Shown here piece after piece: positions 1,260 through 55,366 of a DNA stretch of 64,000 nucleotides. Under the pieces are notes generated by a model. It was not told where the DNA came from and made no database searches. It worked only from the letters and a program-made list of their open reading frames with translations. The translations under genes were made by a program, and so were the position numbers. Numbering within the stretch: the first letter of the stretch is position 1; each line of letters begins with the position of its first letter. The DNA comes from Branchiostoma floridae (Eukaryota; Chordata; Leptocardii; Amphioxiformes; Branchiostomatidae), in contig NC_049980.1 in assembly GCF_000003815.2 (NCBI RefSeq), forward strand, positions 24,908,660 to 24,972,659, written 5' to 3'.

Positions 1260-4200
1260 TGACTTATGCTTGCATCTTTCTTCTTTGTTACTTAGATTGT
1301 GAGAGTGTGTGTAGAGTTAAGCATTTTCAACTTTATCCTTGTAGGGGCTAAGAACATCTAAACTACTCAGTCAATGTGACTCTGCATTGTCTCTACAAAC
1401 TTGTGAATCGTCTAATGCAAGTAATCACATTCCATTTTGCTTGGATTGCAATATGCTGTATTTGCTCGCGAGCAAATGTCGGCCTTTCTAGTTTATCATT
1501 TATTTTTACACAATGAAATGGTCAGAATTGACATTTTGATTGACATTTTGTAGTACACAACAAAGGAACTTTTCCTAGAATTTTAAAGAAAAAGTCATGC
1601 ATATTCCTGACAAAATATTACTGATGTTCTTTGACATAATCTGAGAAAAAAATGTACCTTATACAAAATTAGCTTCTATTTAACTATTGTTGAGGTTCCT
1701 ACATGTATTCTTGTTGGGAACTCGATTTGGTCAGATATCCAATGTTAGCACCTAGATGGTCATTAAGTTGAGGAGATTTTATTGTACTGACTTTTCTCTA
1801 AGACTTTGGATACGCTGCTATTACCATGAAAGCTCTTTGGTGCAATTTAAAGTGTGAACAGACAGTACTTAGTAGTAGGTTTTGTGCCATACCATTCCAA
1901 GTGTTACAAGCAACCTTTCAGCTAGGTGTGTAAGGCTAAGAGCAGTAACATTTTGTTATATGTTATTAGTCCTTTTTTGACTGGTTTATTTTACATGACA
2001 GCTCAATTTGGGTACATGTATAACTCGGCACGAAGTGAAGATTTTAATATAGGAAAGACACAAAACAGTAACAAATGTTCATTTATGAAAATTTGAATAA
2101 GAACAAGTATTGTTTTGTAGAAGACTCCTCAGGATGGGGCAGTATATACGTTAGGGGCTATCATGCTAAAAGACACCCTACTCCTGATATTGTGAGATTA
2201 TAACTAAGCAGTGAAATTATCATATACTATATTCAGTTACAAATTGATAATTGTACTGTATTAACATTCAGTGTTGCGATCTTTGCACTTCTTTTATTTG
2301 CAAGAAAACATTTGCAGCATTCCATCTTGCAGGAAATTCAAAGTCCCTTGAGATGCCAGATCACAGCAGTATAGTTATTTTGTGCATGTCAGTCAGTCCT
2401 TGTGTAAAAAATGTTCCACCCTATCGCTGCTACATGTAGTGTGTGGACACTGCAAATACATGTCCATCTCCTGTTACTTTAAATTGTTGTAGACTGGTGG
2501 ATGAATAAATTTTTAAATGTATCTTTATTGTATTTTTCTTCTGTACAATGACAAAGTAGACTACTCTGACATAAATACATGGCACTGCGTAATTCGGGAG
2601 AGGAGCCCTACACCAGATTTAACCCTTCACCGTGAGTAAGGTCAGTTCAACCTTGTGCCCAACCCTGCTAATTACATTATTTGTCTGCTCCTTGTGCGTC
2701 ACAAAGTTGTTTCAAAGGGCATTTCAAAGTTCACTGGGTGGTATTCATTATGATAATGCAATAAGTGGATGAATCCAAAACAAAGGTACATGTAAATGTC
2801 ATCATACTTCCCTCAAGTTGTTTAAGATTGAAATGTGGATAAGCTAGCAGTTGGTGGTTTACATTTGCTAACTACAAACCAACAAAACAAGTTGTAGTTA
2901 GGTGCACTTTGAACCTAAGTTACTGTTACCTTTCCTACTAGTTAGATCTAATCAAGTCGCAATGATTCTGGAGACAGCAGACAATTAGGAAAGGAATGCA
3001 GAAAATCAACTGTAGCACATGGAAGCAAACAACACTAAACCGTACATAAACTATCATTTATCCATAAATCTAGATTTTCAAATAGGATGTCATGCAACAA
3101 AATTTCTATGTATGTCTATGTGATCAGAAGTGGAGACGTATGAGACATAATTATGAAAATTCCTTGTTTGGCCACTGATAACAAAATTGAATTTGTTTGA
3201 CTGTCCTTGCAGTTTTGGATCAGTATGGCTTGCATTTGCAATGACAGAATTAAGAGGAGAAAAGCAGTAATATGGCTATGCACTTAATTCAGTGTAACAT
3301 TTAACCATATTCTTTTTTTTAAAATCTTTGTGGACCAAGGTACATAAGCTATTCTTACAAGCTACATAATGTACTCTGTAAAGCTGTGGATGTTATGAAT
3401 AGCTTACGTTAGTTATGCAACCACCTGAAAAACAAAGCTGACCCTGGCATTGCCTGCAAGACTAAGCGTGTAGGCATTATGTCAACAAGGTCAACGCACC
3501 TTGTGCATTGTCTGCTGAAAACAACCGCAGCAGTGTTCTCCCTCAGATTGATGGTAAACACTTCTACTTGAGCTGCAATGCCAGTGCTCCTGTTACTGTT
3601 AGGCATGCTTCAAACTAATGATCGAGACCTGATTTCATAAGACTAAAACTTTTGAAAATCAGAAATGCAGTCAGCCAGATTGATTTTCACAATGATGTTG
3701 TGATGAAAAGAAGTCATGCAGGATTTTGTTAGCATGACTGAGATGTGTACTCATGATATGATAAGCACATCATACAGTGTAAAGATATTGAAGATCAGGC
3801 TACAGATCTGAAGCTCCATCCTAGAGTATCAAACTTGACTGAATGTGATCTTGACCTGAAATGACACTTGTTTCAGGCGGTCAAAGACCTCTAGTAAACA
3901 ATTTCAGTGACATCAGATCTTGTTATGGTGGAACCGCAGGAGTAACCAAAGGTCAAAGTTACAACTTAGCATTCAAGCATTTAGTCTGCACGGCTATTTG
4001 TTCATTTATTTAGCAACATGTAGTAGGCTTTCCTTTGGTGGCATTGAATAACACTTGTTTTCCACACGGTCTGTACCCCCAGCTTATTTTAGGTAGCAAT
4101 TCATTACTGCAGTGTACGCCCTCAAGTCTAGCAACCATCTCTTCTGAGAAATATTTCTGGAGCACAAAAAACTGTATTAAAGGATATCACATGAGCTTCA

Positions 4201-4980
4201 AGAACAACTAAATTCTAGCTCTCAATTTCATTAATTAAATTTTGGAGGAAAAGGGTATTTTCCTGTCAAAAATGATGCACAAAATTGGGCATTCTAATGT
4301 GGACACGAAACCATCACCCAGATTTTTTTGCACAAAATTAATTGATATTTCCAGAATACCTCTTTGGTATGATTTTGCCAATCATTAAGAAAATCAAAAC
4401 TCAGGTTTTTCATAATAATGAGTGAGACATGGCAATGCTACCAACAAAACCAAAAGAAGGTCCTTTCTTTAATGCCAAGTAATGTTTGCATACCTCAATT
4501 AGCAAGGTCTGGAGCTTTTTACTAAATTTTAGGGGACATTAACAGGAGAAGATTGTCCCTGCATTTATAGTAGACAGCTGTACAAATTAAAATATATCAT
4601 GTTGAACACAAAGTTTAAAGCTTGCAGTGAACACAATATGGCTGTTTGCCAGTTCACCTGGTCTATTTTCTTGACCTTGAGTACCCATCAAGAAGCACAG
4701 CAGGGTCAATAACCTTTTGGGGAACAATGACCTTGGGAGTTGCTGGTCATGCATGACCCCCAGGCAGCAAAGACTTTTTACCAATTATTCAATCTGAAAT
4801 AGAACAAGCCATTTGGACATTTGGCATCTAGGTATGGCCTATCATTGCCAGCTTTCATAACTTCTGTGGTTTGAGCATGAACAGATTTTTCTTTCCTTGT
4901 ACTTTTCATACATGAGTTGGAAGGAAGCAACATTCATGTAATTGACAGTGATTCAAACTCAGCCTTCATTCCCATTAGCC
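1260..4980. other. AT-rich non-coding stretch
   Basis: No reading frame with recognisable protein character and no clear exon signals were found on either strand. The left part may be 3' UTR of the weak plus-strand gene, since a plus-strand AATAAA occurs near 2505. The rest looks intergenic. Confidence 0.5.
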
Positions 4981-4989
4981 TGTAACATC

Positions 4990-4995
4990 TTTATT
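4990..4995 (-). terminator. candidate polyadenylation signal of the large minus-strand gene
   Basis: AATAAA on the minus strand, about 570 nt beyond the stop codon at 5568-5570. It is the nearest clear canonical signal downstream of that stop. No transcript evidence was available, so the 3' end is inferred. Confidence 0.35.
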
Positions 4996-5567
4996 TGACA
5001 AACATTCAATATTTCACACAGAAAAACACACAAGAAAAAATACTTCCTAATGTTACCTCCATATACTACTCAACTCCATAGTGATGAATAATGTTAAAGT
5101 TTAAAAAAAAGGCTTAAACCGAAGGTCAACCACTTGACTTTCCCTCTTATATTATTATATTTATGATATAAAAACTGAAGCAAGAACAAAGGATGTTAGT
5201 CATCGGACAGTTGACTATGACTATATCTAGTAGTACATAGACGTAGCGTAAAGTACATGTAGCAACAAAAAAACTTTTCTGCACCTTGAAGGTATTTATA
5301 AAGATCCTTACAATGGGTACATATTTCCTTTATCTTCCCCATGCAAAATCTTAAGATTTTATCAGTCAACCCAATCTGTATATAAATCTGTATATATTTT
5401 GATACGTTTGATAACTGTAAATGATTTTAAATGTCCTCGTTATGTTGTCCAATTGTTACAACTATGTTAGTACATGAGCAATTCAGGACCAATTTCTGAG
5501 TCCTGCGAACCTGCATGTACTTTTTAATGGACCCAATAAACCATTATTATTATTAAAATTATCAATC

Positions 5568-8167
5568 TCAGGAGGAGCAATCAGACACACTGCTTGGCCA
5601 GTCGCACACGTGGTTGGCGTTGTTGAAGATGAGTCCAGCCGGACAGTTCATGGTGGTTGGAGTACTGTGGCCAGGGATGCAGACATAGTACTCCGTGCCA
5701 CACTGGCCGGTGGGACGGAAATAGTTGGAAGTCCTTCCTTCACACGTGAAGGCGTTGACAGCTGTAGGGGAGGGCACAGTATTTAATTTAACATTCAGTT
5801 TGACATGTCAAAAAGCACCAATTTGCACAGGTGGAACAAAATCACCCAATATGGGACAAGCCATGATGCTAACAAAGCAAACAGTAGAACTTTGCATCTA
5901 CACACCTTGTTGGCAGGTGTCTCCAGTGAATGCAGAGGTGCAGGTGCAGGTGTTGGGAGCTGTGCAGGTGCCGCCATTCTGGCACGGGACATCACAGTGA
6001 GGCTCACATCCAGGCACCTCCCAACTCCACTCACATCTGGGGAGGACAGACATTAATTCAGAATTTCGAAGTAGGCTTGATGGTGATTGTATATTTCTAA
6101 GCAAGCCCTCCAAACTGATCAGATGGAGTAAAAAAATGTTAAGCACAGACTTGGAATTTTGTGGTGTTTTGGGACAAAGATAATAGAGCTAAATCTATAA
6201 ATCACACCAAGATGACAAGTATGGGAGCTTCAGCAATGATGTAGAAATAACTTTGTAATATTTTAACCTCCTTGGTTCCTAACCAATGCCAGTATACTAC
6301 AGTATATGGTCAAACAGTGCCCCCTACCTGTCAGTGACAGTACTGTAGGCTGTACCTCCCTGTGCACAGTCTCTCAGGTAAAGAGGGTGGCCAGTTACGC
6401 ACTCATAGTACCTTCCACAGTCAGCTGGGTAGCGTCCAGGAGATCTATCTTGACAGGTGACTGGAGAGAACAGAAACACAATATGTTGGACGCTATAGAA
6501 GAGAATTTCACTGTCCTGTTTAAAGGGGATTTGGAAATAATTCACTGCTGAAAAATTTGCATTGCCATATCTCCCGTTCTATCACGAATTTATGTTTGAG
6601 TCATAGATAACCAGTATTTTTTGTTGCATATCAACAAGCTTAAGATCAGCCCATAGATGGATTTTTTGCAATGAAATACTGTTAATGGATTTCAGCAGTC
6701 ACCATAGAAACAGTGAACAAACAACTAGCACTAAAAGTTCAAGAATTACAGTATCAAAGTCTCAAAGTTAAACTGAATTAAGGAAGTTCATGGTGCACTG
6801 CACACTTACACTGCTGGCAGGTGTTTCCCTCCCAGCCGTCAGCACAGTGGCACCTGTAAGCTCCATCTGCTCGGACGCATGTGCCTCCATTTTGGCAGGG
6901 CGTGTCCACACAGTCACTTGTCACATCCACAGCATCTGTCAAAGGGAAGCAATCGTAACTGTTTATTATATGCAATTTGTATATCACAGGGAGTATCTCA
7001 TGATTGATGAAGATATGCCACTTATGCACTATTTTATTAATAAATCTGACTTTAAGTTCAAAATTCCACACATTGGAAAAATGCAGTACAAAAATACTGT
7101 GCAGGTGGACAATCATGGCAGCATCTTTCCTTGGTGCTGAAATGCCTGTCTGAGACATATGCCAGGGTTCAGAGGTCCCCATGTCTGTGCAGGTCTTGCA
7201 AAGCTGTAAGCTATATCATGTGTAAATGAGCCTGTTCTACTTACCACATTGATACTCTGCCCTTCTGGTCTCTCCAAAGATTGCGATGCGAGTTGTATCC
7301 CAGTCAATCACGTTGCCATGGTAATTACAGAATGCTGCCCAGTCCGCTCCTATTTCTTCTGGAGACAGCACGCGGTCCCAGAGGTTCACTTCCGACAGTT
7401 CTCCGATGAAAGCTTGCTCTGCTTTGAATCCTCCCTCGACTACATCCTGGTCCTGTCCCAGGATCCATGTGCCGCCTCTGCGCACTCTCCCTCCCACGTT
7501 AAACCCAGAGCCGGAAGCCGCCAGCACGCCATCTGCGTACAGCTGCCAAGCTCCATCACTGCTGCGCCAGGTTGTACATACGGTGTGCCACTCATTGTCC
7601 CAAACAGGTGGGTCCGCCATGTGTGTATGACTTTGTATGTATAACTGGAAAAAACAAAAACATGAGGTGTTTTATCAGCTGCAAAATCATGACATGTGAT
7701 TGATAAGATATTCACATGAAGGCATATTTCATTACAGAGAAAACTGGATTCTGGTGCCTGACTTTGGATACAAACAGGAATGTCATGAGAGATCTACATG
7801 TATCCTAATTATCTGGGCAACCAGCAAAACCCAGTTTGAATACATATCCACCATCAACAACCAATAATACAGGATAAATTAGATGGCAGAGGTTTAATGT
7901 CTGAAGAGATTTTACATTGCATACTTACTTTAAATCCACCATTCACAAACAGCAGAAGCTCGTTGTGATGTTCTTCCACTGCGTAGCTGACCAAGCTGAT
8001 TTGGTTGCTGGAGGACATGTCAGAGCGCATGTGCACACATAGAGTAAAGCTTGTCAAATCCTCAGACAATGTTGTTCCCATCCTGGCATAGTTACTAACG
8101 CCTCTTGGACCAGGGAAGATGATCTTCTGTGAGTCGCCTAGCACATCATTGCCATCATGTCCTGCAC
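5568..8167 (-). CDS. cassette 2: pentraxin, EGF, chitin-binding, EGF, terminal chitin-binding
   Basis: Exons 7929-8167 and 7245-7644 form the second pentraxin domain, with the same exon split and the same 400-nt second exon as the first. Exon 6810-6935 is EGF, 6328-6460 CBM14, 5906-6036 EGF; these are close copies of the EGF-CBM14-EGF set at 9570-10613. The last exon (5568-5761) is a more divergent CBM14 module ([30 protein letters not shown]) and ends the protein with SDCSS. Confidence 0.92.
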
Positions 8168-11100
8168 CTGCAAAAGATCACGTACGATTTTGACAACTGA
8201 CAAATGCTGAATTTACATGTGATAATGTAGGCCAGATTAGCAATCAGACAAGTCACCAAACAAAATAGACTTTACAGCTCAGAATCACAGTCTGCAAGTT
8301 TGAAAGAAATAGAAACTACAGTACAGTGCAAATTCACTTCTATGGCAGCACCTTTCCTTGGTGCTGAAATACCTGTCTAAGACATTTTCAGGAATGTTCA
8401 AGCATGTTCAAGAATCAAAAAAAAGAACAAAAGGGACTTTTTATCTATACACCTTGTTGGCAATCACATGAAATCACCTAGGCAATAAATTTCATTGCTT
8501 AAAGCTGCAGATTCCTTTTTACCTCACAGAGCATAACCATATATCTGTAACATTATGTATGACACTATACAGATAAGCTGTTAAGTATACTAATGAGCCT
8601 GTACTACTTACTGCACTGATACTCTGCCCTCCTGGTCTCTCCAAAGATTGCGGTGCTAGTGGTCTCCCAGTCAACCACGTTGCCATGGTAATTACAGAAT
8701 GCCGCCCAGTCTGCTCCTATTTCGGCTGGTGACAGCACGCGGTCCCAGAGGTTCACTTCTGACAGTTCTCCGATGAAAGCTTGCTCTGCTTTGAATCCTC
8801 CCCCGACTACATCCTGGTCCTGTCCCAGGATCCATGTGCCGCCTCTGCGCACTCTCCCTCCCACGTTAAAACCAGAGCCGGAAGCCGCCAGCACGCCGTC
8901 TGCGTACAGCTGCCAAGCTCCGTCACTGCTGCGCCAGGTTGTACATACGGTGTGCCACTCATTGTCCCAAATGGCAGGGTCCGCCATGTGCGTATGACTT
9001 TGTATATATAACTGGAAAAAAATGATGACATGAACAGGAATGTCATGATAGATCTGATTCGAACAATCTGGGCAATGAGTAAAACTTATTTTACATCAAT
9101 AACATTACATATGCAACATAAATAAGGCTTGATGTCTGAAATTATTGAATACTTACTTTAAATCCACCATTCACAAACAGGAGAAGTTCGTTGTGATGTT
9201 CTTCCACTGCGTAGCTGACCAAACTGATTTGGTTGCTGGAGGACATGTTGGAGCGCATGTGCACACATAGAGTAAAGCTTGTCAAGTCATCAGACAAGGT
9301 GGTCTCCATTTTGGCATAGTTATCAACACCTCTTGGACCAGGGAAGATGATTTTCTGTGCATTGCTGCCACCATCACCATCACCTAAAAAAGACAATGTG
9401 TGAATTTTCAAATCATCATACACTGAAAGCATGTGTGATAATGAGGCTCAGATTAGCAGTTAGCATAGTCATTAAAGCAGATAAATTCTTTAGCTTTAAG
9501 AATGACAATGTGGAAATTTACCCCCAAAAGGCACACAAACTGCACAAAAGAGACTTTTCATCCACACACCTTGCTGGCAGGTGTCTCCTGTAAATGCAGA
9601 GGTACAGGTGCAGGTGTTGGGAGCTGTGCAGGTGCCGCCATTCTGGCAAGGGACATCACAATGAGGCTCACATCCAGGCACCTCCCAACTCCACTCACAT
9701 CTGGGCAAGACAAACATTAATGTCACATTTTTTCAGGGAAATTGATGTTTATTTCACGTCTTGTGGTAATTTGGCTCCATAAAGCACTTTTAATAATCTT
9801 GAAGCTAATGATATTTGAAGGAAAATATACATACACTGTGATACAGAAAAGCAAATGACATTTGATGGTTTGTGATAGGTGCCTCTACAACCATGTACCA
9901 GTAAATGATTATGCAGCGCCCCCTACCTGTCTGTTACAGGACTGTAGGCTGTATTCCCTGGTGCACAGTCCCTCAGGTACAGAGGATGTCCAGTGACACA
10001 CTCATAGTATGACCCACAGTCAGCCGGATTCCTGTAGCGCCCAGGGGCTCTACCATCGCAGGTGACTGGAGAAAGGAAGAAATGCTTGAACAGTTATACA
10101 GGAATTCATGACTTTAGTTCCTTGATTGTTATGTAAACCTGTACCTGTCTGGCCAACCAAGCAACCATACACATGTTCTCACTCACTCACTCACTGTCCG
10201 GTTCTCTATACATTATGTATAGAACAGTGAGTGAGAACCGGACAGTGAGTGGTCATTGCAGTTGTCAGGATCATGAGAAATGAAGAGCCTTTTGGCAAAG
10301 GTTGACAAAAGAAAGGCTTCAATTAGCTTACCAGGAAATACATAGCTTGGGGTTAAACAATCATTGCCATTGTCCATTGTCATAGATTGCAATTTCTAAC
10401 GAATGCAATTTGTTAGAAATTATCAATATCACAACAAACAAGGCCTTTTTGCAAGGACAGATATGGCTGACAAAGCAAGTAAGTGATACATACACAGTTG
10501 GCAGGTGTTTCCCTCCCAGCCGTCAGCACAGCTGCACCTGTAAGCTCCGTCCTCCTGCATGCACGTGCCTCCATTTTGGCAGGGTGAGTCCACACAGTCA
10601 CTTGTCACATCCACTATCAAATGGGAATGAAAATATGAAAAATTAACAAAATGAAGGCTTAACAGCATGAACTAAAAAGCCTGCTGGTCACCAAAGAGCA
10701 GACTGACATTTTGCAGATATTGGAAAACAATGCTTTTTCCTTGGTTCTGAAATGGCTAGCTAAGACATGTTCCATGGTTGAGACTCAGATCACTATTCCT
10801 TTACAGATTCTAGAATTGCCAGTGTAGCCATTACAGAGGCGGCGGCAGCAAATTTCGCTTGGGGGGGCGACCCTTTACTGACAGAATTTTGCCGCACATG
10901 TAGTGCCGAAGGCACTACCTGTCGCGCCAGAGGCGCGACCATCCTAGGGGGGTCCGGGGGCATGCTCCCCCGGGAAAATTTGAAATCTTGACCCTCTAAA
11001 ACGCCATTTCCTGCGTTTTGACGGGCACATTTTGCTGCTAGACTAAGCTAACTTTGATGACAATTCTGTTAGAAAGACGCATGGTTTTAGCGAGGGCGAT

Positions 11101-14100
11101 GCCCCCAAAATATATTCACGATTTCAAGTGCGGAAGGTGCAAGCTGTAGCAAGGTTGGTCTGGGGAAATTTTAAAATCTGCACCCTCTGAAACCCCATTT
11201 TTTGTATTTTGAGGGACAAATTTTGCTGAGGGACTATGCTAAATCTAATGCCATTTTTGTCAAAGAAAGATGTTTGAGGGCGATGACCCAAGCCTCAACA
11301 AATTTTCACCATGTCGTTGTGAGCGCCGGAGGCACAATTAGTCATCCGCGGCTAGGGAGGTCCGGAGAAAATTTTGAAATCTTGACCGCCTAAAACGTCA
11401 TTTCCAGCATTTGAGGGCCACATTCTGCTTGTAAACTAAGCTAAGTACGATAGCAAAATTTCTATTAGTTTAAAAGTTTTTTGAGAGCGACGCTCCCGCA
11501 ACATATTGTCCTGCGCCGACATGGCCAAAGACGCGGGCCGTCACAAGGGACTCTGACGAAATTTTGAAATCAGGACTCTCTGAAACGTCATTTCTTGCGT
11601 TTTCAGGCATAAATTTTGCCGTTAGACTAGCTTGATTTAAAGATATTTCCATCATCAAAAAAATACACAAGGTTTCAGCTTGATTTTCTGGGGGGGCGAC
11701 GCCCCCCCAACATATTTTTCGGGGGGGCAGCCGCCCCCCTTGCCCCCCCGGTGCCGCCGCCACTGCATTACCATGGAAATGCTTTTATGCAAAAGCTTTT
11801 CTGCCACAATGGCATCTTTCCTTGGTACTGAAATGACTGTCTAAGTTCATGTCCCTGGGTTCTATACCTGTGCAGGTCCTGCCATCACCAGTGTAGCCAC
11901 TCGGACAGGAACAGTTGAAGCCTCCTACAGTGTTGGTGCATGCAGCTGAGGGAGCACAGTCGTGACTTCCTGACTGGCATTCATTAATGTCTGTTGATAG
12001 AATGGAGGAAAAAGTTGATAACCTATCCCTATTTGGTGTATAAATTCATGGCATTTGAAACATCTACATGTCAAAGATGGAAGCTCATCAACATACTTTT
12101 AAGCAAACTTGGTGAAAGAGTTATTTAGAAGAAAAGATTACCATTGATTACTAGAAAGGACAATAATTGATAAAACCTTTAGGGCTAAAGTTACAACGGT
12201 GTGTTATCCCAGAAGTGCAAATAAGAAGGTTTCTACAGTTGCTATTTTCATGAGGCAGACATATACCTTCACATGTTATTCCATCTCCAGTAAAGCCATT
12301 CCTGCATGTGCATGTGTACTGTCCCCCAACAGTAACACAGTCTGCATTGGAGTCACAGGAGTTGCTACCAGGGCGGCAGGCTGCAAGGTCTGCAACAAAA
12401 GTCCATAAAACAGATCAGTGCCTTGTTTGCTATAGACAATGTTTCTGCTTTTGTTGTTGTGGGATGTTGAAAACACTCATAATTTTCATATCATCTTGTT
12501 ACCTTGTACAACTAACTGTCTCTTTCACACTGTGCTGCCGCAGCTAGACAAACTTGTTTGCAAACATCAAGTGTTATTATTCTTGCATTGTTCTGAGTGC
12601 TTTTTTTGCATCTTCCAACTTACCTGTGCACGTCTTCCCATCTCCGCTGTACCCTTCCTCACATTTACAGGTGAACCCTCCGATCACATTGGTACAGATG
12701 CCATGCTGCTGGTCACAGTTGTGGGAGCCAGTTGTGCACTCATTGATGTCTGTGAATGGAAAACAGTGATAAATCATTGTCATTCTCAACAGGGTGGTAA
12801 ATTTTGGTATGTGGAGAAATAATAAAGTAACAGGAAACAATAAAACACAACTCCACAAATTAGAGAAAAGAAAAGAAATTCTTCACCTAGTCTAGGTTTA
12901 TGGAGCTTGGGAAAAAACTTATTCAAACTTTAATATTCTTATTGAAAACAGTGCACCATAGTACAACTTCATACAACATACAGTACAACATACCTGTGCA
13001 TGTCTGGCCATTACCCTGGTACCCTGGCATGCATGCACACGTAAAGCTGCCGGGAGTGTTGGTGCAGTACGCATCAGGGTGACAGCTGTGGGCTCCTGAG
13101 GCACACTCATCAATATCTGAGGCAAAGAAATATCATCCATATTGTTTATAATAGCATTGAAATTGTCAGAAAGGTACATTATTAAATTTTTCACATGGAG
13201 TAAATACATTGTAACCACTGTTGTAACTTGTCTTACCTGTGCATCCATTGCCATTTGTAACAAATCCACCGGGGCAGGTGCAGGTGTAGCTTCCAACTGT
13301 GTTTGTACAGGTCATGTCACCATGGCAACCATGGGTACCTGAAGAACACTCATCTATGTCTGAAGGAAATGATCGGGGGGGAAAAAAACGTAAAAATGTT
13401 GTGGAATACAATATCAAGAAATCACATTTCTTGTTCTGTGAAATGATACTCTATGGTACTTTAGTTTTGATTTTAGAAAATGGGACGGACAACTGTGCCC
13501 TACCTGTGCAGCTCTGTCCATCCCCTCCAAAACCATCCTGGCAGGTACAGGTGTAACTTCCATCAGTGTTGGTGCAGGTGGCATTGGTATGGCAACTGTG
13601 TGATCCCTGCAGACACTCATTTACATCTGTGTAAAAAAAAAAGAGGAGAAAATAAAATATCAACAGTACTATACAATGAAAGAATCTAATTCACTACTGT
13701 GATGACATGGTGCCTGTGTAGCAGAGTTTCAGATGAGAAAAATCAACAGCATGCTACTGCAGGGCTTCAGACGGTAAAGAAATATGCATACTTTATTAGA
13801 ACTAGTGTGGAGCCCTTAGTTGCTACATGTGTGAGGAAACTACATGTAACGTTACATGTATATGAAGCAGTGCCAGATGCAAAATTCATCTTTAAGACTG
13901 GCATCATCTCTTCACAGCTAGATACATTATAAACAAAAAGGCCTGTCTATGTGTAACAAACACACTTCACCTGTGCATGTTTGGCCATCTCCATCATAGC
14001 CACCCAAGCAGGTACAGGTGAAACTTCCATCTGTGTTAGAGCATGCGGCGTTGGCATGGCAACTGTGTGATCCCTGGGAGCACTCATCCACATCTGTGTG

Positions 14101-17100
14101 GAGAAACAATGGGTGACAGAGGTTATTATAATGGACTGCTGTAAATGTTGACTTTCTGTTTCTTGCGATAACATCTTCACTGGAAACTTGAAACCACTGC
14201 AAAAGGCTTGTTCTGTCTTCTGCCCACCTACCCCTTGTGTCAACTATTGCAAACATGCCACTTTCTCTCTGATGTGAAATTGGATCCCCAAGAACTTAAT
14301 GAAACAAATGCATGTAACTGCATGTCGCATATCTTTAGATTCCAACTACCTCACAGTCCAGTAAGAAATTCCAACGGAAATGTGCCATGTCATACACACC
14401 TTCATCACAGTCAGGTCCAGTCCAGCCTGCTGCACATGTGCACACGTACCCACCACTGTTGTCGTTAGCACAGGCACCATGGTGACATGGGCTGTTCTGA
14501 CAGGCATCCACAACTACAGGCAACAGTTTTAATAAAGAGGGGATTTACAACCTCCTTGATCTAACATTTCATCTTTGAACAACTTAGTGTGTCATGAACA
14601 AAGTAACTTACTCACTGAAAGAAGATAAAGGAAGATATCATAAAATTATAACCAGCAAAACAGCAATAAATCTTAACTCTAGAATTTGTCTATCACAAAA
14701 AATACTTATGCCAATCATACTCACATTCACAGTATGACCCATTGCCCTGGTAGCCACTGTTGCAGTGACATCCTTGGACTCCATTCTGGATCCCACAGAA
14801 AGCGTTCTGATCACACCCGACCTCCGTGCACTGGATGTTGTTCTTGCTGACGCACTCGCAGCGGCGGTTACAACCCTCTCCCCAGGTTTCTCCAACCTTT
14901 AGAAAAAAATATCACAGCAAAACATCAAGAATCATCATCATCATCATCATAACTTGTTGTGCCATTAATGAAGACAGTTCAAGAATAGCACTGATAGTCG
15001 CACTTTTCTTTTATCAGAAAGTCATGCACTTACTGCATAGTAGTGTCCACCACGAGTACAGCCACACTCTTGCCTAGTAACACAGTTCCCTCCACTCAGG
15101 ACGTAGCCTCCATCACACTCGCACCCCTCCACACAGGTGCGGTTACAGTACTGGGGCGCTGACACGTCTGTACAGGTGGCGGGACAGGCGCTGGCACAGG
15201 AGGTGTAGTGACTATTGGTGGGGCAGGAGAGCGCTGGAAAGGAAATCTCAGGTCAGATGATGACTCAGGATGCTTTACAGATGGACATTAATGGTTTTAA
15301 TGTTTTGCAGTCTTACCATTTTGCACTCTAAAGTAGCTGTTTTGCACACCATTGCATTAGTCATGGAGTTAGGTGGCAGGGATAAGGTTCAAGTAGCATC
15401 GTAAGTACATATTGCAGTTACATGCAGTTTTAAGACCACACAAACTCAAACTTACGGCAGAGGGTGGCATTCCTCCATGTTCCGATGTTGATGCCAGCTT
15501 CGGCACAGGAGTCGGTATAGGCCTCCAGGTTGTGACACAGGGAATCCATGTCTCCGTTCTGGGCACACAAGTCGTACATGCAAGTCTCAACAGTACCCTA
15601 TGAGGGAAAAGAAGTTTAAACATTGTAAACTCCTGCATTAAAGGCAAGAAAATGGAAACAACCCTAAACGATTGGGTAGATATGAACGTGTGATGGATAG
15701 TATTCAGCACCAAGGACAGATCTGTTTATAGACGTGTGGATGGCGTTCAGCACCAAGGGCAGACTTGTTCATTGTAAGTCTTGTTGCGGACCTTGTGTGA
15801 AAGAAGTTGGGGGAAGTCTGACCAACTGGCTTTCCAGTACAAACATGTACATGTAACTCACACTAACTGTAACATTAGCCAGAGCTTCCTGTAAGTGTAA
15901 GCAAAGTACATATCGTTAGGCAGACGGTAAACCGATGTACAAAGTAAATTCTTTTTCTAAGATGTCCTAGATTTGAGAAGATACAGGCAGTAAGAGGGTA
16001 CATACCTCAGGGTTGAGGGCTGAGTAGCAGGGAGCAAACACGCTGTTTGGGTCGTTCAGGATCCCGCACAGTTCCGACACCGTCTGCTGGAGGGCGTCGC
16101 TGCACTGCGTGATGGGTTCTGGGTTCTCGTTACACCTGTAAGGATTTCAAATATGTCACCGTCAAATCGTTGTAGCAAGGCAAAAATGGACTTTCATCTT
16201 TGAAATTCTTTGATTAATCTTTGCTTTCGCACCACAAGCCACATCGCAAGCAAGAAGTTTACTTATTTATGTTCTGTGCAGCTAGATAGGGTCAAACTTT
16301 GCTTCTTGGCTGTGGTTTTCGAAGGTACTGTGGTTAGAATACCTTCTTGATTTGCGATATCTTGCGAAATGCATTAACGTGCTCATGCCATGGTAAAAAT
16401 TACTTACTGGTCGCCTTCAATCGCAACCCGCCAACTGTTGCCAAACGTCACTACGTCACCAGCCAGGGTGCCGCCGGCTGTCAGGTATTCGTCGTTGACG
16501 TCGCCGTTGTAGTTCCCACACAGTCCGCAGAGGGCGCCCTGGTACAGGTCAGGCAGGATGACCTCGGCGCGATGACTCCCGTCAAACGACACCTTGAGTC
16601 CAAAGCCTGTCTCTATGGTAACGTAGCGACCGACGAACTTGACTGTTAGACCAGCCCTCGGCTCGGCAGGAAGGGTCGTGATCAGTTGGTCAATCTGGGA
16701 AGAAGGAATATGTTTAACTAACGAATGAAGACGTCTCTGATGTATAAAGCATTGACTTCAGCACGGTGCGTCTCTTTTACTTTTTCTAACTAGGAAGATA
16801 GTGTTCATATCACAGTATCCTTCCTCAGGGTGACGCTGTTACTAGTCTAGCTCGGCGCCTGACAAAGAACAAAACATACCAAGGTCATGCGCATCTGTCG
16901 TACTTACATAGACGACCTTATTCTTCTCCACCACAATGGTGTGATTGTAGACCTCCACGGTGACCTGTGTGACGAAGCTGACGCGCGAGTTGCCGCGGTT
17001 CTCGTTCCTGGTCTCGATGTTGAAGTACGGCAGTGTGTTGTTTTGACAGTTCCGCGCTAGGGTGTACGTGCAGGCTCCCTGGAAGTGGTGCGTGCGCCCG

Positions 17101-20100
17101 TCAAACGTGATGTAATGGGGATCTCCAAAGGCAGCGCACGTGCCCCTTGCTGCAATCAAAAAACAAAGAAGAAATTAGAACTATCACAAAGAGCGTGTTT
17201 TAAGCTAAGTCTATGCTAGTTTGCTTCTTTAACGTGGTGGTTTTCGTCTAATTTGTAAAATCATATCGAAATGATCAAAAGGAAAATTGATCGCCCTCAC
17301 TATTATCATTAATAAGAAAATGAGAGTTACTCACTCCAGCAGGTCTTTCCGTCTCCGGTGAAGCCAGGTTTACACTCGCACTTGTACGACCCGTGAGTGT
17401 TCACACACACCGCGTCGGGATCACAGTCGTCCAGTCCCAGCTCACACTCATCTACGTCATGGTTCACGTCAGCGAGATCTTCGTCAATAAGACCGTCACC
17501 GTCGTCATCTCTGGGGATTAGAATATTTATGTTGATGCTCTGTGGTTTAGTTTCCGATAGACACTATGTCAAGCTTCCTAACCTTCTTACTAACATTGCA
17601 TCTCGCCCTAACTTGCGACATTTTTTTCGTCAACGTTCCTTTTTGTTTGGAAAAGGATAAAACGCAAAACCATCGTGTTCCAGATATTTACGCCCAAAAG
17701 GAGACTACTCTAGTAAAAAGCAACAAGCTAAGATCATGGTATTATCAGAAGAAGACAAAATCGCCGGAAAGGATAAGCTTGTTCATTACATGTGTTATAA
17801 ATTGCATGTCAAGATTAGAAAAGAAAAACTTTGATCATAGACATCGTTTGTGTAACGCCTATTAGACTTATTGGACACAAGGTCTATTATCAGAAAAATT
17901 AACGTCATCACAAGTCTTAGTAGCTCACATTCCATTCAGTAGTTCCTCGTCCACCAGCTGGTCACAGTCGTTGTCGACGCCGTCGCCAACCATTGGTTCC
18001 GTGACATCACATCCTCCGGAGATGCTGGCCAATCGCAGACCCCCGGGAAACCCCACGGAGTCGTAGGAGGAGAAGCCGTAGTAGAAGAGGGAGAAGGTGA
18101 CAATGGCGGAGGTGTGCTTGATCTTGTGTGTCCCCGTGGTGCCGATGTGAAGCTGCGTGGCGGACAGATCGGTGTCCGGAATGGGAGTCCACGTCGTGGA
18201 GGAAGACAGCGGGTTGCCGTCGTACGTCAGGCCCGACGTTTGTGACGTCTTGATGACAATGTTGACGTAGCTGGTGTAGGCCGTGGACAGCGCGTCGACC
18301 GTGGCGAAGGTGTAGTCGGCGGCGAACTGCTCCACCGGCGGCAGGTACATCATGAAGGGATCGGTGGTGATGCCGTCCGAGTCCTGCCCCTTGCTGTACT
18401 GCAGCACCATGATTGGCTGCGATGAGGTGATGGTCTTGTACGTGCTGGACGAGAGGTCCAGCTCCCAGAAGTCACCAGCGTCCAGCGAGCGAGGTGGTAG
18501 ACCCGTGACGTTGACAGTGGTGCCGTTTCTGGCGGCCACTAGTCGGAAGATGTCGCCTGCTCGCCGCACGGCCAGCGGGACCGTCACGAAGCGCTGTCCC
18601 CAGGTGTTGACGGGCGGGACGTGTTCCACCAGGTGATCGCACGCGGCGAACTGGTTGGGCACCTTGTCACACCGCACGCCTGACATGACGGACACCGGCT
18701 TGTCCGATAGGATGCGGGTGCCTGTGAGGTCCGACTGGTACCTGCCCTGAAACTGCACAGCCTCTAGGCGGTCCAGTGTGAACGTTATGACGCTCCCGGA
18801 ATAGTAGTCCCTGCCGTCATGGTACACTCTCCCCTTCAAAGTGACGCTGACCGAGGTGCCGTCTTCAACACCGAAGATGGCGAATTCGGACGGATACTCC
18901 CGGAAAGCAGGATTGTAGGAAGCTACGAAATACTCCCTGCCCAGTACGTCGACGGGAAGACCCAAGAAGCCGTCCGTGGTGTGCCTCTCCTTGTTCACGC
19001 CGTACAGGATGATCTCCCGGTCGGCGGTGACGAGGACGCCCTTCTGAGCCCGCTCGTGTCCGGTCAGCATGACGGAGCGCGGCAGGGTGACCACCTGCAC
19101 AGCTGCGTCTGTCACGACCAGCTGCTGCGTGTAGCTGGCACCTGGAGCGGTGATGGTGACGTTGGCGGGCTCTGTGCTCGCGCTGGTGATGAACAGCTCG
19201 AGTTCGCTGAACCCGTGGTTCTGCAGGAAGCCGACCACAAACTCTGTTCCTCTGTTGTCTGGAGACGTGAGCACTGACAAGGGACAACGTCAACATTTAA
19301 GTACCGATTCTAAGTTTGGATCATCCGATCCGTAAAACGCCAAGTTGTGGATAGATAACCATAGAAGAGAACCTCAAGGACACTTTTTTTGGCACAAACA
19401 CATACACGCGTGCGCGTCTTCGCACACTTGTCCGTCGTCAAATCCCTTGAAATGAACAAATGTTTTCCCCATCTTGCAGATAGAATGTAAGTTGATACAA
19501 TTTCTCTCAGTGTTTTCTTCAGAGTAATACTGATAAAGAGTTTTAAGAAATAAGAATACTGTTAAGTTACCTTCTTCACAGTTGGTGCCTTTCCACCCAG
19601 GAGCGCACAGACATGCGTACTCGCCTCTCCCGTTCAGACACGTCCCGCCATTTCGGCACGGACTGCTGAGACACTCGTTCACGTCGGGCGGGTCTGTTAC
19701 AACTGTTGCAAAAGCAAAAGCTATATATCAATACAAACCCATTTATAAGAATGACCCTGTTCGCTATTCTCCAAGCACAGGTTGATTCGCGGAGATATAG
19801 TAGTAGTCGGGAAATTGAGAGACTACTACTATATCTCCGCGAATCACGCCTCTGCTTGGGGAATATGTAGTGTCTACTACTACACTGTCTAGTGATATGC
19901 AGGGTAGCAAGTTTATTTGTTCCAGTAGCAGGGTACATTTTTACAGGGGAGATTGTTAGCCCTTCCCTTTAAAAACGTGCCCGAGGCACCTTCTCGAATA
20001 CGGGACCCTCAGTTTATGTCCCTTCCGAGAGACCAGTGTAGCCCCAACCGAGATCCCCTTCCCTAAATTACCCTCCCCAGTTGAGTAAGCTACAGAGACA

Positions 20101-21249
20101 TGATTTATATATGAATCGCCCTGTAGGAACAGAAAATGGGTTCAGGCCGAAAAGCTTTGGAGTGTTTTTAACATACCACAAAGAGTGGCCTATTAACGTG
20201 ATCATGGCGTGACCAGACTATTCATACATTCAGGTACAAAAGTTTGCCTATTTCAAGACGGTTGCTTTCTTCCCGTACCCATGTCAGTTTTCACGCACCC
20301 TTGTTCCAGCAAAAGTTCCTAAAATACAGCTTATTCTAGATAAACAGCTTTAATCGCAAGTGTATCGATCAAGACCTATGTAACAACTGTGCAAGTATAT
20401 AAGGAAACTATTGTAAAACTAATGAGCTTTTATTCTGTTTAAAAGCTTATTGGTAAAACACAAACTCTTGTCTTCACGTTACGCGACTTTTCGTGTCCAA
20501 ATACATGTAACACCAACTTTATGTTGTTCGACTTCAGCGCGCATCACACTTTATGTCTCAACTTACTCGTTCAAGCGTACCAGCTTACAAAGCTAAAAAA
20601 TATGACAATGTTTGATCCGGAGAAAAATAAGGGTACAAACTTTCCAAAATAATCTTTTCCTGACATTTTCCGCTCGGCTTTCTCTTCAGCACAGATAGCA
20701 AAATCTAGTAACGTTGTCCAAGATATAACGTTATATGAATTCGTCCCATGATATCAAATACTTGTAGCACTACAAAACCCATAGTACAAAAGAAAAGAAC
20801 AGTCGGTGTGTTTACTTAAACCCCAGGCAGATTTGCCAGTGGCATAAGATAGTATCAAAGCTGGCCAAGGAGTATAGACGACCAGTTAAAGAGCATTAGG
20901 ACAGGTGGAGGAAGCTATCCCATATACAGGACATTTCCTTGTGTGGAACAATGGACACAGTAGTGAAAGGAGGCGCCAGGGGCAAATATTAGAAAATGAC
21001 ACTATTTCACTCCTTTCGCCATATTGCGTCCATTGTTCTACACAAGGAAATGTCCAGTATATGGGTTAGCTTCCTCCACCTGTCCGAGTGACCAGCTGGC
21101 TCCCTTTGGCCGGCGACACTCCTTGGCCAGCTTTGCCACTGGTAAATCTGCCAGGAGATTAGTATTTACTCACCCTGTGCCTGCACCGACGCCAGCACGT
21201 AAACCACCAGGAATGATGTCACGCCCGTCAGCCATGGACCACGCGCCAT
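5568..21249 (-). CDS. secreted multidomain protein: EGF, IgGFc-binding, VWD-C8-TIL, EGF array, chitin-binding and pentraxin modules
   Basis: Complete gene, ATG at 21249, TGA at 5568-5570. Coding exons: 21174-21249, 19571-19702, 17929-19273, 17335-17510, 16908-17149, 16408-16694, 16006-16135, 15456-15597, 15034-15233, 14725-14896, 14400-14513, 13971-14093, 13504-13626, 13237-13359, 12994-13116, 12624-12749, 12267-12389, 11868-11990, 10494-10613, 9927-10065, 9570-9700, 9157-9383, 8612-9011, 7929-8167, 7245-7644, 6810-6935, 6328-6460, 5906-6036, 5568-5761. All junctions are GT-AG and in phase; the sum is 6120 nt, 2039 residues. Domain order: signal peptide (about 1-25), EGF, IgGFc-binding domain with acidic metal-binding repeat (about 70-535), EGF-CA, VWD, C8, TIL, EGFs (about 910-1333), chitin-binding, EGF, two pentraxin domains (about 1424-1845), EGF, chitin-binding, EGF, chitin-binding. 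No transmembrane segment is seen. The role as an extracellular gel or pattern-recognition protein is inferred. FCGBP, zonadhesin and fibropellin share only parts of the architecture. Confidence 0.92.
8612..10613 (-). CDS. cassette 1: EGF, chitin-binding, EGF, pentraxin
   Basis: Exon 10494-10613 is an EGF module. Exon 9927-10065 is a chitin-binding type 2 (CBM14) module with six cysteines and the DCGSYYECV motif. Exon 9570-9700 is an EGF module with the unusual start [11 protein letters not shown]. Exons 9157-9383 and 8612-9011 form a pentraxin domain: TLCVHM and WHTVCTTW supply the conserved disulfide, GQDQD resembles the calcium-binding loop, and [17 protein letters not shown] is the family signature. 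Confidence 0.92.
10188..10251. repeat. perfect 19-bp inverted repeat (hairpin) in an intron
   Basis: Arms at 10188-10206 and 10233-10251 are exact reverse complements (CACTCACTGTCCGGTTCTC on the left). The spacer itself contains the palindrome TATACATTATGTATA. It lies in the intron before the first CBM14 exon. Confidence 0.8.
10847..11762. mobile_element. non-autonomous DNA element with TIRs, TSD and internal tandem subunits
   Basis: The termini are inverted repeats starting CAGAGGCGGCGGCA on the left and CAGTGGCGGCGGCA on the right (read inward), flanked on both sides by CATTA, a probable 5-bp target duplication. Inside, a unit of about 190-200 bp recurs four times, starting near 10976, 11168, 11370 and 11558. 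Each unit opens with AAATTTTGAAATCT-like sequence, then a 'CTCTGAAACGYCATTT' block and a 'TTTTGCT-AGACTA' block. No transposase frame is seen. The superfamily is unassigned. Confidence 0.75.
11868..14513 (-). CDS. array of eight single-exon EGF modules
   Basis: Eight exons, each one EGF-like module and each phase 1 at both ends: 14400-14513 (Notch-type), then seven modules of 123 nt (126 nt for 12624-12749). Six of the seven start with D-[VI]-[DN]-EC, the calcium-binding EGF signature; the one at 12267-12389 starts DLAAC and lacks the Glu, so it may have lost calcium binding. Identical size and phase point to tandem exon duplication. The array probably forms a rigid spacer. Confidence 0.92.
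14725..15233 (-). CDS. TIL and TILa/VWC-like modules with EGF-like tail
   Basis: Exon 15034-15233 encodes a trypsin-inhibitor-like cysteine-rich module ([18 protein letters not shown], then [16 protein letters not shown] and CVTRQECGC). Exon 14725-14896 adds a [13 protein letters not shown] segment and an EGF-like C-terminal part ([14 protein letters not shown]), the arrangement found in zonadhesin-type proteins. The TIL fold here is probably structural, since no inhibitory loop can be assigned. Confidence 0.85.
15456..16135 (-). CDS. C8 domain (two exons)
   Basis: Exons 16006-16135 and 15456-15597 encode a cysteine-rich segment with C-x3-L-C-ILND, FAPCYS and ETCMYDLC patterns and a terminal NIGTWRN-TLC. 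This matches the C8 module that follows VWD domains. Confidence 0.88.
16408..17149 (-). CDS. von Willebrand factor type D domain (two exons)
   Basis: Exons 16908-17149 and 16408-16694 encode one VWD domain at about residues 577-752. Its start carries [12 protein letters not shown], including the GDPH motif (585-588) at which several VWD proteins cleave themselves. The second exon carries [10 protein letters not shown] (713-722), the CxxC signature of VWD domains. The domain is directly followed by C8 and TIL modules, as in mucins, zonadhesin and FCGBP. Confidence 0.93.
17335..17510 (-). CDS. acidic metal-binding repeat plus calcium-binding EGF exon
   Basis: The exon continues the acidic repeat of the previous exon ([14 protein letters not shown]) and then encodes a calcium-binding-type EGF module starting DVDEC and ending [11 protein letters not shown]. 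Splitting the repeat across an intron with phase 2 is consistent with both flanking frames. Confidence 0.88.
17929..19273 (-). CDS. IgGFc-binding domain in a single large exon
   Basis: The 1345-nt exon encodes residues about 70-517. It begins with a segment typical of the IgGFc-binding N-terminal family ([11 protein letters not shown]) and includes family-like stretches such as [10 protein letters not shown] and a conserved [12 protein letters not shown] segment. In FCGBP-type proteins this domain lies at the N terminus ahead of VWD units, and that order is kept here. The exon ends with an acidic motif ([14 protein letters not shown]) resembling the MopE-type metal-binding repeat. Whether it binds immunoglobulin-like ligands is doubtful, because invertebrates lack IgG; the name is only a family label. 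The exon has high GC and long antisense open frames that I treat as shadows. Confidence 0.9.
19571..19702 (-). CDS. first EGF-like module exon
   Basis: The 132-nt exon is phase 1 at both ends and encodes one six-cysteine EGF module (pattern NEC-SSPC-NGGTC-YACLC-GW-G-NC). The NGGTC and GW-G-NC motifs are typical of Notch-like EGF repeats. Confidence 0.9.
19765..19864. mobile_element. short MITE-like inverted repeat in intron 1
   Basis: A perfect 25-bp inverted pair lies at 19784-19808 and 19821-19845 (core GATTCGCGGAGATATAG). It extends outward imperfectly through CCAAGCA on both sides to about 48 bp per arm, with a 12-bp loop. Confidence 0.7.
20824..21153. mobile_element. foldback element, about 330 bp, next to the signal-peptide exon
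   Basis: Two arms of about 150 bp (20824-20977 and 21003-21153) are imperfect reverse complements. Both carry GACAGGTGGAGGAAGCT, GGACATTTCCTTGTGT and CAATGGAC. A related single-arm copy lies at 21975-22071. No coding capacity. Confidence 0.75.
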
Positions 21250-24163: not shown

Positions 24164-27100
24164 TTAAACTATTAAAACGGTCAACAGACAAGTCAAGACT
24201 AAAACCATCTCAATTTTTTTGCTTTCCGGAGCGCCCCCGGTGATTTTGTCATTGACGCACACGTCATAATCGTCATGTCCAACAGCAATGATAGAACAGA
24301 CATGGTCTACCCAGCAGTTATTATCACATGTTTCGGTAGGATCATAGCTTAGAGTGTTAAACTGGTGATATTTGCGAAACTGTGACACGTCTGGGCCGGT
24401 GAAGGAGGAGGCCAGGCGGTGTAGAGAGTCCGTTCCCCCGTCGGGCAGTCCGAACGTGACGGTGAGCGAGTAGGCCTCCTGCCACACGGGCCTGCCGCTC
24501 AGGTTGGCCTCTGTCAGGTTGGTGTAGTATTGAACCACATCCTGTTGTTGGATATAGGAAAGGAAACATGTGAATAGGTTTGCCTAGTTTTACAATGATT
24601 GTTATGGTCAATATGGTGTAAAATAAAATGTATATAATTTCCACTATATTCTCCACCAGAGACTTCTGTGCGCATGCGCCTCAAAAATTAAACATGTAGA
24701 ATACTTAACCAGAGAAGTTGGCTGGGTAAAGGCATTTAGGGCCTCATGAGACTAGGTCTCCTGGGTTTCACCGTAAATGCTGGTCCGGCTCTTCTTTTAG
24801 TTTTCGACAAGGAACCAGAAAAACAACGTCCGTCGCCCATGTCCAAGTTCAGAACGTGTTGCCCCCCAGTCAGAACGTGTCTTTCCCGAAGGCCTGGCCT
24901 TCTACGATTCTCTAATATCCCGATTATCTGAGCTTTACGCACTTGCCATAAACCCATTCGATAAAGTTTATTAAGTCGTTATTGGTTTAATTTACCTTAA
25001 TCTGTAGCGTCTGCCTGTCGTACTTGTACAGCCTGACTCCGGGGTTGTTGGCGCCGAACCCGCTGATGCCGGGCAGCGTGGTCCTCCACGGGGTCACGGC
25101 AGGACACAGGAACATCGAGCTCACAGCTGAGCCTGGAGCAAAGAGGAAAGTTCAGAAAGTTGGCTTAAAGAAATGCAAAGACCGTTGCTAGGCACCCACC
25201 ATACCCAACGCGGGGTTATTTTGGGGAGCCACCACAAGGCCCTAAGGGGCAATATCAGGTCGACTCGTCGTACAAGATTCATACAAGGGCACAGTAAGCG
25301 TGTCGTAATTTTGATGAATGAATGAAGACCTTTATTGTACATTCATACCCACTGGGTTTAGTACAGGTCACAACAAATGATACAACATGATATAATGATA
25401 CAATGAATCTACACTACTCAAGGATCGTATTCTACTGCGTACATTCGGCTTCTTCTCGTTTCTTTGTGATATTGAAAATGTAAGAACAGATATGCTTTAT
25501 AAGTAAAGGCTTGTCTAGACTCATAAGGAATATAAATTTGTCTATATTACTTAGTTGTATGAAGTGGGGGAACATGGATTCTATTAGTCTGTAGAGTTCA
25601 GCTCTCTCTTTCTTGTACAAACTACATTCTACTACAAAATGATGTTCGTCTTCTAACTTATCTAGATTGCAGTATCTACATATTCGTTGTTCTAGAGGAG
25701 TGCGGTTATGTCTTCCGGTTTCGATGTGTAATTTGTGGCAACTGACTCGTAGTTTTGTGACGGCCGTCCTGTGCCGAATATTGTCAATATCCAGGTATTG
25801 TTCCACATTATAAGTGGACTTGAACAGTCTGTAAGACCTCAATTTGTTTTTAGCGGATCCACCTTTGTTGTCATTGTGTATCTCTCTTAGAAAAGTTTGA
25901 AAATAAATGTCTTTCAGACGCTGATTGATAGAATTGATAATTTGAGACGAATTTGTATTGTGCTGTAGAGGACAATGCCATACATAACCATAGCCGCATT
26001 CCTCCAGTGACTGGCGAACTCCTGACGCCCAACACTTGGCTCCAGCCTTGTCTAAATCTATCTGGCAAGAAAGAGCGTCTGACTGGAAACTGTCTGCTGG
26101 TACTTTCTGGCGAAGTCTAATTAAGTGTTTAATAGCATTTAGGGAGGCTTCCAAATGAATGGGGAACCTCCCTAACTCGGCTCTAGCGGCGAGGCCACTT
26201 GTGGATCTTGGCACGTGTAGGGTTTGCTTACAGAATTTTAGATGTATTGTTTCAATAGGACAGGATTTGGGGCTTTTAACAGAACCCCAGATTTCCGATC
26301 CATAGAGAATTATGGGCTTAACACATGTATCAAAAAGTTTGTTTCTGACAGACAAAGGAGCATCGGCTTTGTCTAGGGATTGATTTATCCCGAATAAAGC
26401 TTTCAGACCCTTACTGTACAAGTGTTTGTTGTTCGCCTTGAAAGTACCCGCAGAATTGACAACAATACCTAAATAACAATAGTTTGTCACTATTTCAACA
26501 GGATTGTTCTTATACATGAAATACACATCTTTTGGTATACGACCACCCTTAGTGAAAACAATTATTTTTGTTTTCCTAAGGTTCACATTTAGGTGCCATG
26601 TTTGACAGTATTCTTCTAGTCTATTCAAAGAACATTGTAGACCTTGTTTTTATTCAGAGAAAAGAACTAAATCATCTGCATACAATAGACAAGAGACACG
26701 CTTACTGTACATAGTTGGGGGGTTACACATATCATTATCAAAGACAGATGTAATATCACTTAAAAATAAATTGAATAAAGTTGGGCTTAAATTACAACCC
26801 TGTCTGACACCACAGTTTGTGACAAAAGGTTCAGTCAGACCTTGACTGTATTTCACACGATTTGTAGTTTTTGAATACATGTCTTTGATAGTTCGAAGAA
26901 AGTTGCCCTGTATACCTAACTTGTTTAATTTGTAAAGGAGGCCATTTCTCCAGACGGAGTCGAACGCTTTACTAAAATCTACGAAACATGCAAAGAGACG
27001 GGAATTTTTACTTAGATACTTGCTAACTAATGTACTTAACACGAAAAGATTATCTGTAGTTCTAAAGTTCTTCCTAAACCCTGCCTGATGGGGTTTGAAA

Positions 27101-55049: not shown

Positions 55050-55178
55050 TACGGAACCGTAAGAAAAAATTGCTGCGACTTCTCGACGATAAAATCCGTG
55101 CGATTGCTGGTATCCTTCACGGTGCACGCGCTGAGAATGTTTCTCTCGGAATGCCTGTGCCTCTGATGATGTCGAAGG

Positions 55179-55185
55179 TTTATAT
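55179..55185 (-). promoter_or_regulatory. Id: TATA box of the Id gene
   Basis: Minus strand ATATAAA about 130 bases upstream of the ATG at 55049, predicting a start site near 55150 and a 5' UTR of about 100 nt. An NF-Y-like CCAAT (plus strand, near 55253) and a CCACGCCCC box (near 55232) lie just upstream. Confidence 0.6.
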
Positions 55186-55366
55186 CTGAACCAAACAAAC
55201 AGCGGCTTTCCCAGCTGTGGACACAATTAAGCCACGCCCCTTCACCCGACCCAACCAATGGGCACGGGGCAATCACCGACACCATTGTTATTTCGACACT
55301 AATGTCAGAGCAATGACCAATCAGAAGGCGAGAAGCACCACGTCGTGTTGAACTGCTCCACCCCGG

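Follow-up and report, generated by a model that had tools for sequence, protein, structure and literature searches.

The window analysed here is a 64-kb stretch of lancelet DNA (C2:24908660-24972659), and positions below refer to it unless a contig is named; the genome searched comprises 513,431,437 bases in 431 contigs. The minus strand of the window carries, at 21249..5568, a gene that was rebuilt from the sequence as a 29-exon model, with the ATG at 21249 and a TGA ending at 5568. The 6120 coding bases of this predicted model yield 2039 residues (216 kDa), the only stop is terminal, and the frame runs open through all 28 introns. Because exon limits were set by frame and GT/AG, the GT-AG ends of the 28 introns follow by construction, and the open frame is the real test. 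The rebuilt gene has the same length and limits as the 2039-residue reading of the original prediction, again without an inner stop. A TATAAA lies at 21941, where a non-coding first exon upstream of exon 1 is possible, and an AATAAA lies at 4995, downstream of the terminal exon 29. No further copy of the gene was found in the remainder of the 64-kb window (tblastn, E 1e-3).

Pfam matches and the translation give the order of modules along the minus strand. Exon 1 (21174..21249) supplies the start codon and a signal-peptide-like stretch of 25 residues, recognized by hydrophobicity and frame, followed by a calcium-binding type EGF in exon 2 (19571..19702; Pfam and strict pattern) and by the IgGFc_binding domain in exon 3 (17929..19273), of which residues 170-469 match PF17517. 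In exon 4 (17335..17510), the second half of an Asp-rich, MopE-like motif, which scores below the Pfam cut-off, precedes a calcium-binding EGF. A single D assembly follows, composed of a VWD that carries GDPH at residue 585 and CGLCG at residue 713 in exons 5-6 (16408..17149; Pfam, PDB match), a C8 in exons 7-8 (15456..16135; Pfam), and the TIL and TILa/E domains that close it in exons 9-10 (14725..15233; Pfam, with FCGBP best in PDB). An EGF in exon 11 (14400..14513; Pfam) leads into seven EGFs in exons 12-18 (11868..14093), one per phase-1 exon, six of the seven fitting the strict calcium-binding pattern, and then into the EGF of exon 19 (10494..10613), the duplicate partner of exon 26. Exons 20-21 (9570..10065; Pfam) encode CBM14 no. 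1, which a phase-2 intron interrupts, and an EGF. Pentraxin 1 occupies exons 22-23 (8612..9383; Pfam, structure-database match) and pentraxin 2, 93% identical to it in protein sequence, exons 24-25 (7245..8167; Pfam). The EGF of exon 26 (6810..6935), CBM14 no. 2 with an EGF in exons 27-28 (5906..6460; Pfam), and the terminal CBM14 no. 3 with the stop in exon 29 (5568..5761; Pfam) complete the protein. EGFs number 14 in total, eight of them fitting the strict calcium-binding pattern, and Pfam places nine EGF_CA stretches in the C-terminal half.

A domain search of the joined translation thus bears out every module named in the original prediction (IgGFc-binding, VWD-C8-TIL, EGF, CBM14 and pentraxins), each with Pfam support far beyond chance. 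Apart from the signal, no transmembrane-like stretch was found, the six most hydrophobic 19-residue stretches all lying within the signal. A PTS region like that of gel-forming mucins is also absent, the highest S+T+P content per 60 residues being 43%, inside the IgGFc domain. Across the 2039 residues, Pfam searches gave no match to a VWC or cystine-knot family (the cystine knot at E up to 0.1) or to an Ig family (E up to 0.1), the last of which sets the protein apart from the VCBP architecture.

Two further loci were noted in the window. A sphingomyelinase-like gene (ASMase_C at 24167-24583) apparently contains, in its own orientation, a LINE-like reverse transcriptase (25435-27288, minus; RVT_1 at 26653-27288, Pfam); a phosphodiesterase-like frame without a Pfam match (28146-28403) may also belong to this gene. 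At 54378-55226 (minus) lies a helix-loop-helix protein (PF00010, Pfam) whose motif resembles that of an Id-type inhibitor.

The FCGBP-like head and the CBM14/pentraxin tail

The head of the protein combines a strongly matched IgGFc_binding domain (PF17517, E 9e-79) with a D assembly whose components reach E 3e-39 (VWD), 1e-19 (C8), 6e-13 (TIL) and 5e-7 (TILa), and which is complete to its E domain, beyond the VWD-C8-TIL first described. FCGBP is the best match to residues 577-955, the D assembly, among solved chains in a PDB search; for the IgGFc domain a sequence search against solved structures returned no relative (a single match, E 0.88). In FCGBP the IgGFc_binding domain is N-terminal. 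The lancelet protein resembles FCGBP in joining IgGFc_binding to a VWD-C8-TIL-E with GDPH and in the nearest solved relative of its D assembly, but it has only one VWD in 2039 residues, and hence a single D assembly where human FCGBP has 13, and it adds the EGF array, CBM14, pentraxins and MopE-like motif. Since the many tandem D assemblies are absent, the protein is FCGBP-like and is not classed as FCGBP, and since it has a single D assembly and Pfam finds no cystine knot, its incorporation into a gel would follow by analogy. GDPH is present in 11 of the 13 D assemblies of human FCGBP, where the motif cleaves itself at the Asp-Pro bond, a disulfide keeps the first strand attached, and the protease resistance of the D assembly rises (PMC10880436). 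From the GDPH motif, self-cleavage at Asp-Pro in the secretory route is predicted for the lancelet protein as well.

The MopE-like Asp-rich motif, which the original prediction does not name, lies at 17335-17960, across the end of exon 3 and the beginning of exon 4, between IgGFc and EGF, and scores 17.5 bits against a Pfam cut-off of 27, while being 45-60% identical to stretches of bacterial proteins. A deltaproteobacterial protein (L001:4155-6392) contains a full IgGFc_binding domain (Pfam, E 8e-47), 25% identical to that of the lancelet. A bacterial origin of an IgGFc-MopE unit was considered but set aside: this protein, the single bacterial IgGFc relative found, shows no MopE family, and eight other loci match only from query residue 410, mainly in the MopE-like part.

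In the tail, the three CBM14 stretches separately reach E 4e-11, 1e-9 and 3e-14, all over the Pfam cut-off, and each has six cysteines in the translation. Two Pentaxin stretches are recognized at E 4e-77. In a structure-database search, the best matches of pentraxin 1 are neuronal pentraxin-2 (E 1e-33) and neuronal pentraxin-1 (E 1e-32), and it keeps the Cys36-Cys97 disulfide of C-reactive protein. For the calcium site, we assume a set of seven C-reactive protein ligands and their numbering; the alignment was made on pentraxin 1, and the residues of pentraxin 2, which are the same, were taken from the translation. Three of these seven ligands are changed in both pentraxins (D60H, E138D and E147K), while N61, Q139, D140 and Q150 are kept. 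In the alignment with neuronal pentraxin, Thr replaces the His of the pentraxin signature. The lancelet domains thus share pentraxin sequence and the disulfide pair with neuronal pentraxins and C-reactive protein, but differ in their altered calcium ligands, in the signature His being Thr, and in being set in a mosaic. The substitutions D60H, E138D and E147K make classical calcium-dependent phosphocholine binding doubtful, and the two-calcium site of C-reactive protein is not conserved in full.

The tail also contains a tandem duplication within the gene, likewise not described in the original prediction, in which EGF-CBM14-EGF and the pentraxin each occur twice. Pooled over 327 codons, the duplicated modules give a dN of 0.043, a dS of 0.313 and a dN/dS of 0.14; the low dN against dS indicates that both copies are kept by purifying selection.

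Recurrence of the domain set in the genome

The occurrence of this domain set was surveyed from lists of family matches, all of which are lower bounds (at least 129 pentaxin, at least 62 IgGFc and at least 103 CBM14 matches, the last including two of this gene's own three CBM14, and 150 of 165 VWD matches), with same-strand nearness within 40 kb as a proxy for membership of one gene. Among the listed matches, IgGFc forms 26 clusters, six of which have VWD nearby and two both VWD and CBM14; only one of the 26, this gene, has a pentraxin too, and in one other cluster a pentraxin is the sole partner. Seen from the at least 129 listed pentaxin matches, six lie near all three other families, all in this gene or in its copy described below, while two have only IgGFc nearby, one has only VWD and the remaining 120 have none of the three. 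The complete domain set therefore occurs once in the genome among the matches listed.

Part of the combination recurs in a paralogue at C2:25.63 Mb, 0.70 Mb from the gene, which carries IgGFc, EGF, VWD-C8-TIL-E, EGF and CBM14 in order on one strand. Its IgGFc domain is 77% identical over the part compared, its D-assembly segments are 58-80% identical (one 45% match crosses an intron), and at least eight CBM14 places lie within 40 kb. The paralogue shares the head and the CBM14/EGF modules with the gene but differs in having no listed pentraxin match within 40 kb on the same strand, indicating that the combination was built in steps and is not isolated. Besides this gene, seven further full or near-full IgGFc places are listed. 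For four of them (C8:24.38, C2:25.63, C15:3.83 and C8:22.39 Mb) the adjoining DNA was read over about 10-14 kb each or less, and the other three (C12:15.01 Mb and C15:3.76 Mb twice) were assessed from family positions only. One such lancelet IgGFc gene has sushi domains beside it and another has at least two VWDs, and the closest pentraxins (C7, 83-84% identical) sit beside a C-type lectin domain. The C7 pentraxins were considered as part of a gene of the same order and rejected, because of this neighbour and because, in the surrounding 120 kb, no part of the protein other than the pentraxin gives a match at E 1e-6. Two further partial pairings, of IgGFc and pentraxin at C2:9.94 Mb and of pentraxin and VWD at C2:14.65 Mb, show that pairs of modules recur, although the full set does not. 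These varied partners of IgGFc and pentraxin suggest that the parts have been shuffled freely, consistent with the extreme phase-1 exon shuffling (PMC4284660) and free domain shuffling (PMC12373286) reported for lancelets.

The expectation that no named protein has this full order held in that the top results of open-literature searches included no published architecture of the same kind, but the combination of IgGFc, D assembly, EGF and CBM14 is not unique, as it recurs in the paralogue. A public gene model for the locus, under a generic name, very likely exists.

Three other loci were noted in these lists. At C2:9944414-9955485, an IgGFc domain split among exons is followed, after about 9-10 kb, by a pentraxin of the same strand. 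A cluster of pentraxin matches at C14:3471731-3545385 includes several nearly whole domains in one open frame, and near-identical VWD units stand in a tandem array, one every ~1,942 bases, at C6:15473000-15504898, possibly as parts of one long gene resembling FCGBP or a mucin.

A second copy of the 3' half and the number of pentraxins

To the left of the window lie 1,625 N (C2:24907035-24908659), and to the left of this gap, at C2:24899715-24907032, the 3' half of the gene occurs a second time, this copy being ~95% identical to 1486..10121 (minus) of the window (95.6% against 1486-7654 and 94.8% against 8592-10121). Substitutions number 131 over 5703 non-coding positions and 34 over 1080 coding ones, and range from 0.2 to 7% per 500-base bin, counting bins with at least 50 aligned sites. 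No head for this copy was found within C2:24869000-24914000 at E 1e-6. Both of its pentraxin exons are in frame, while the exon of its CBM14 no. 1 lacks one base and is hence out of frame, which could reflect an error or a genuine lesion. Five of its other exons, compared codon by codon (233 codons), give a dN of 0.010, a dS of 0.110 and a dN/dS of 0.09, indicating that purifying selection has acted between the gene and this copy.

The second copy has one pentraxin where the gene has two. In the first part of this pentraxin, to aligned position 501, 64 of 74 informative sites match pentraxin 1, and in the last part, from 525, 16 of 19 match pentraxin 2; the switch falls between aligned positions about 501 and 663. 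Judged from these sites, the single pentraxin is the product of an unequal crossover between pentraxins 1 and 2 in the second pentraxin exon.

The contig of the window begins in a young multi-copy element (38..~1505), which has five copies elsewhere that are 97-99% identical over nearly the whole length searched. These five and two further copies end at 1489-1505, and similarity to the second copy begins at 1486, so that the two boundaries are no more than about 20 bases apart. One contig thus starts in a mobile element and the other stops in the gene, and this arrangement, with the overlap and the gap, resembles two unmerged alleles. Alleles of the lancelet B. belcheri differ by 4.39% SNPs plus indels (PMC4284660), and the 0.2-7% per bin observed here fits lancelet allelic variation. 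The second copy is therefore most likely the other allele of the gene. Pentraxin number probably varies by unequal crossing-over, with one- and two-pentraxin alleles coexisting, and the twin pentraxins of the original prediction, although present in this gene, are probably not fixed.

These observations bear on two other readings of the locus. If the second copy were a true tandem duplicate or a pseudogene instead of an allele, the twin pentraxins would be fixed; the presence of both copies on one scaffold, the one-base frame loss in CBM14 no. 1, and a synonymous divergence of 0.11 over pooled exons that exceeds the 2.3% of non-coding sites are in its favor. This reading is nevertheless unlikely, because the copy stops at the 1,625-N gap, the window contig begins in a repeated element that ends near the start of similarity, and the divergence per bin fits that of lancelet alleles (PMC4284660). 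Even less likely is that prediction has fused two genes, one for an FCGBP-like head and another for the CBM14/pentraxin tail. The adjoining copy of the tail does lack a head, but it is cut by the assembly gap. Apart from the first, the longest intron (1254 bases) is the one that separates the EGF array from the tail, but the frame runs on across it, as across all 28 introns, and a crude hydrophobicity scan that recovered the true exon 1 found a signal-peptide-like first exon in the right phase in none of the 28. Introns of the gene also contain 13 AATAAA/ATTAAA motifs, though none lies in the 1254-base intron, and with so many intronic occurrences this polyadenylation-type motif alone decides nothing on gene limits. 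In addition, the paralogue at C2:25.63 Mb keeps the order of head and CBM14 tail on one strand. Head and tail thus appear to form one lancelet gene, predicted to encode a large secreted disulfide-rich matrix protein.

Predicted role at the chitin and mucus barrier

Mammal guts are lined by mucin and FCGBP and many invertebrate guts by chitin, the transition falling within the chordates, and in B. floridae a chitinous membrane surrounds the gut content (PMC6109156). An FCGBP-like head suited to mucus and a CBM14 tail suited to chitin fit a cross-linker of both, for which the pentraxins fit a binding face. We therefore propose, at about even odds (roughly 0.5) and by analogy with these systems, that the gene encodes a secreted FCGBP-type mucus protein that is anchored to the chitinous gut barrier of the lancelet and displays pentraxins. 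The head would pack into secreted mucus as FCGBP does, and its VWD, cut at Asp-Pro and held by the disulfide, would gain protease resistance. The EGF rod would set the tail at a distance, where the CBM14 domains could hold the molecule on the chitin nanofibres of the barrier membrane, and the pentraxins would offer a ligand face, probably to microbes or food particles, without the exact calcium chemistry of C-reactive protein. Such a tail may have grown through phase-1 exon shuffling and internal duplication. Mucus-tethered recognition is plausible for the predicted protein, its recognition part being tentative in view of calcium ligands that depart from those of C-reactive protein, and chitin tethering appears at least as well supported as mucus tethering.

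Instead of the gut, the site of action could also be the skin, the egg coat or gill slime. A related alternative, which we consider possible but somewhat doubtful, is that the protein is a structural glue or slime without recognition (skin slime, egg coat or endostyle feeding net), its pentraxins serving to oligomerise or to bind matrix glycans. The altered ligands of classical pentraxin recognition agree with such a role, and so does the occurrence, to judge from paper titles, of proteins of VWD, EGF or IgGFc type in the adhesives of limpets and flatworms. However, purifying selection acts on both pentraxins, and the three CBM14 domains suggest chitin, as reported in the B. floridae gut membrane (PMC6109156), both of which argue against this alternative. 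On the anchored reading, a lancelet protein with an FCGBP-type head and a chitin-binding tail would be the kind of link predicted by the idea of a chitin-to-mucus transition (PMC6109156), in the form of a single protein open to staining, proteomics and knock-out. More tentatively, one locus may hold alleles of a chitin-anchored mucus protein that differ in the number of pentraxin heads through unequal crossing-over in a near-identical exon. Recognition valency would then differ between individuals, maybe under selection, in a molecule linking the invertebrate chitin barrier to vertebrate FCGBP mucus, and the difference in pentraxin copy number, if true, would show exon-level crossing-over tuning an immune lectin.

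Comparable mosaics are described from the Ciona gut membrane, whose proteins include GFM1, a mucin with a chitin-binding domain (PMC6109156). Like the lancelet protein, GFM1 unites VWD assemblies and a chitin-binding domain in a chitin-mucus barrier, so that this combination is not new, but it has the order D1-D2-D'D3-D4 with VWC and a cystine knot, compared with one D assembly and neither of these in the lancelet (PMC6109156). Ciona VCBP-C binds chitin by CBM14 and tethers bacteria on the membrane, which resembles the proposed pairing of recognition modules with CBM14 on chitin; in the account cited, however, it has 349 residues, uses Ig V domains for recognition and has no VWD (PMC6109156). 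In addition, expression data from tunicate gut and endostyle include genes named FCGBP and a pentraxin-domain gene, SVEP1 (PMC10094616, PMC9953650).
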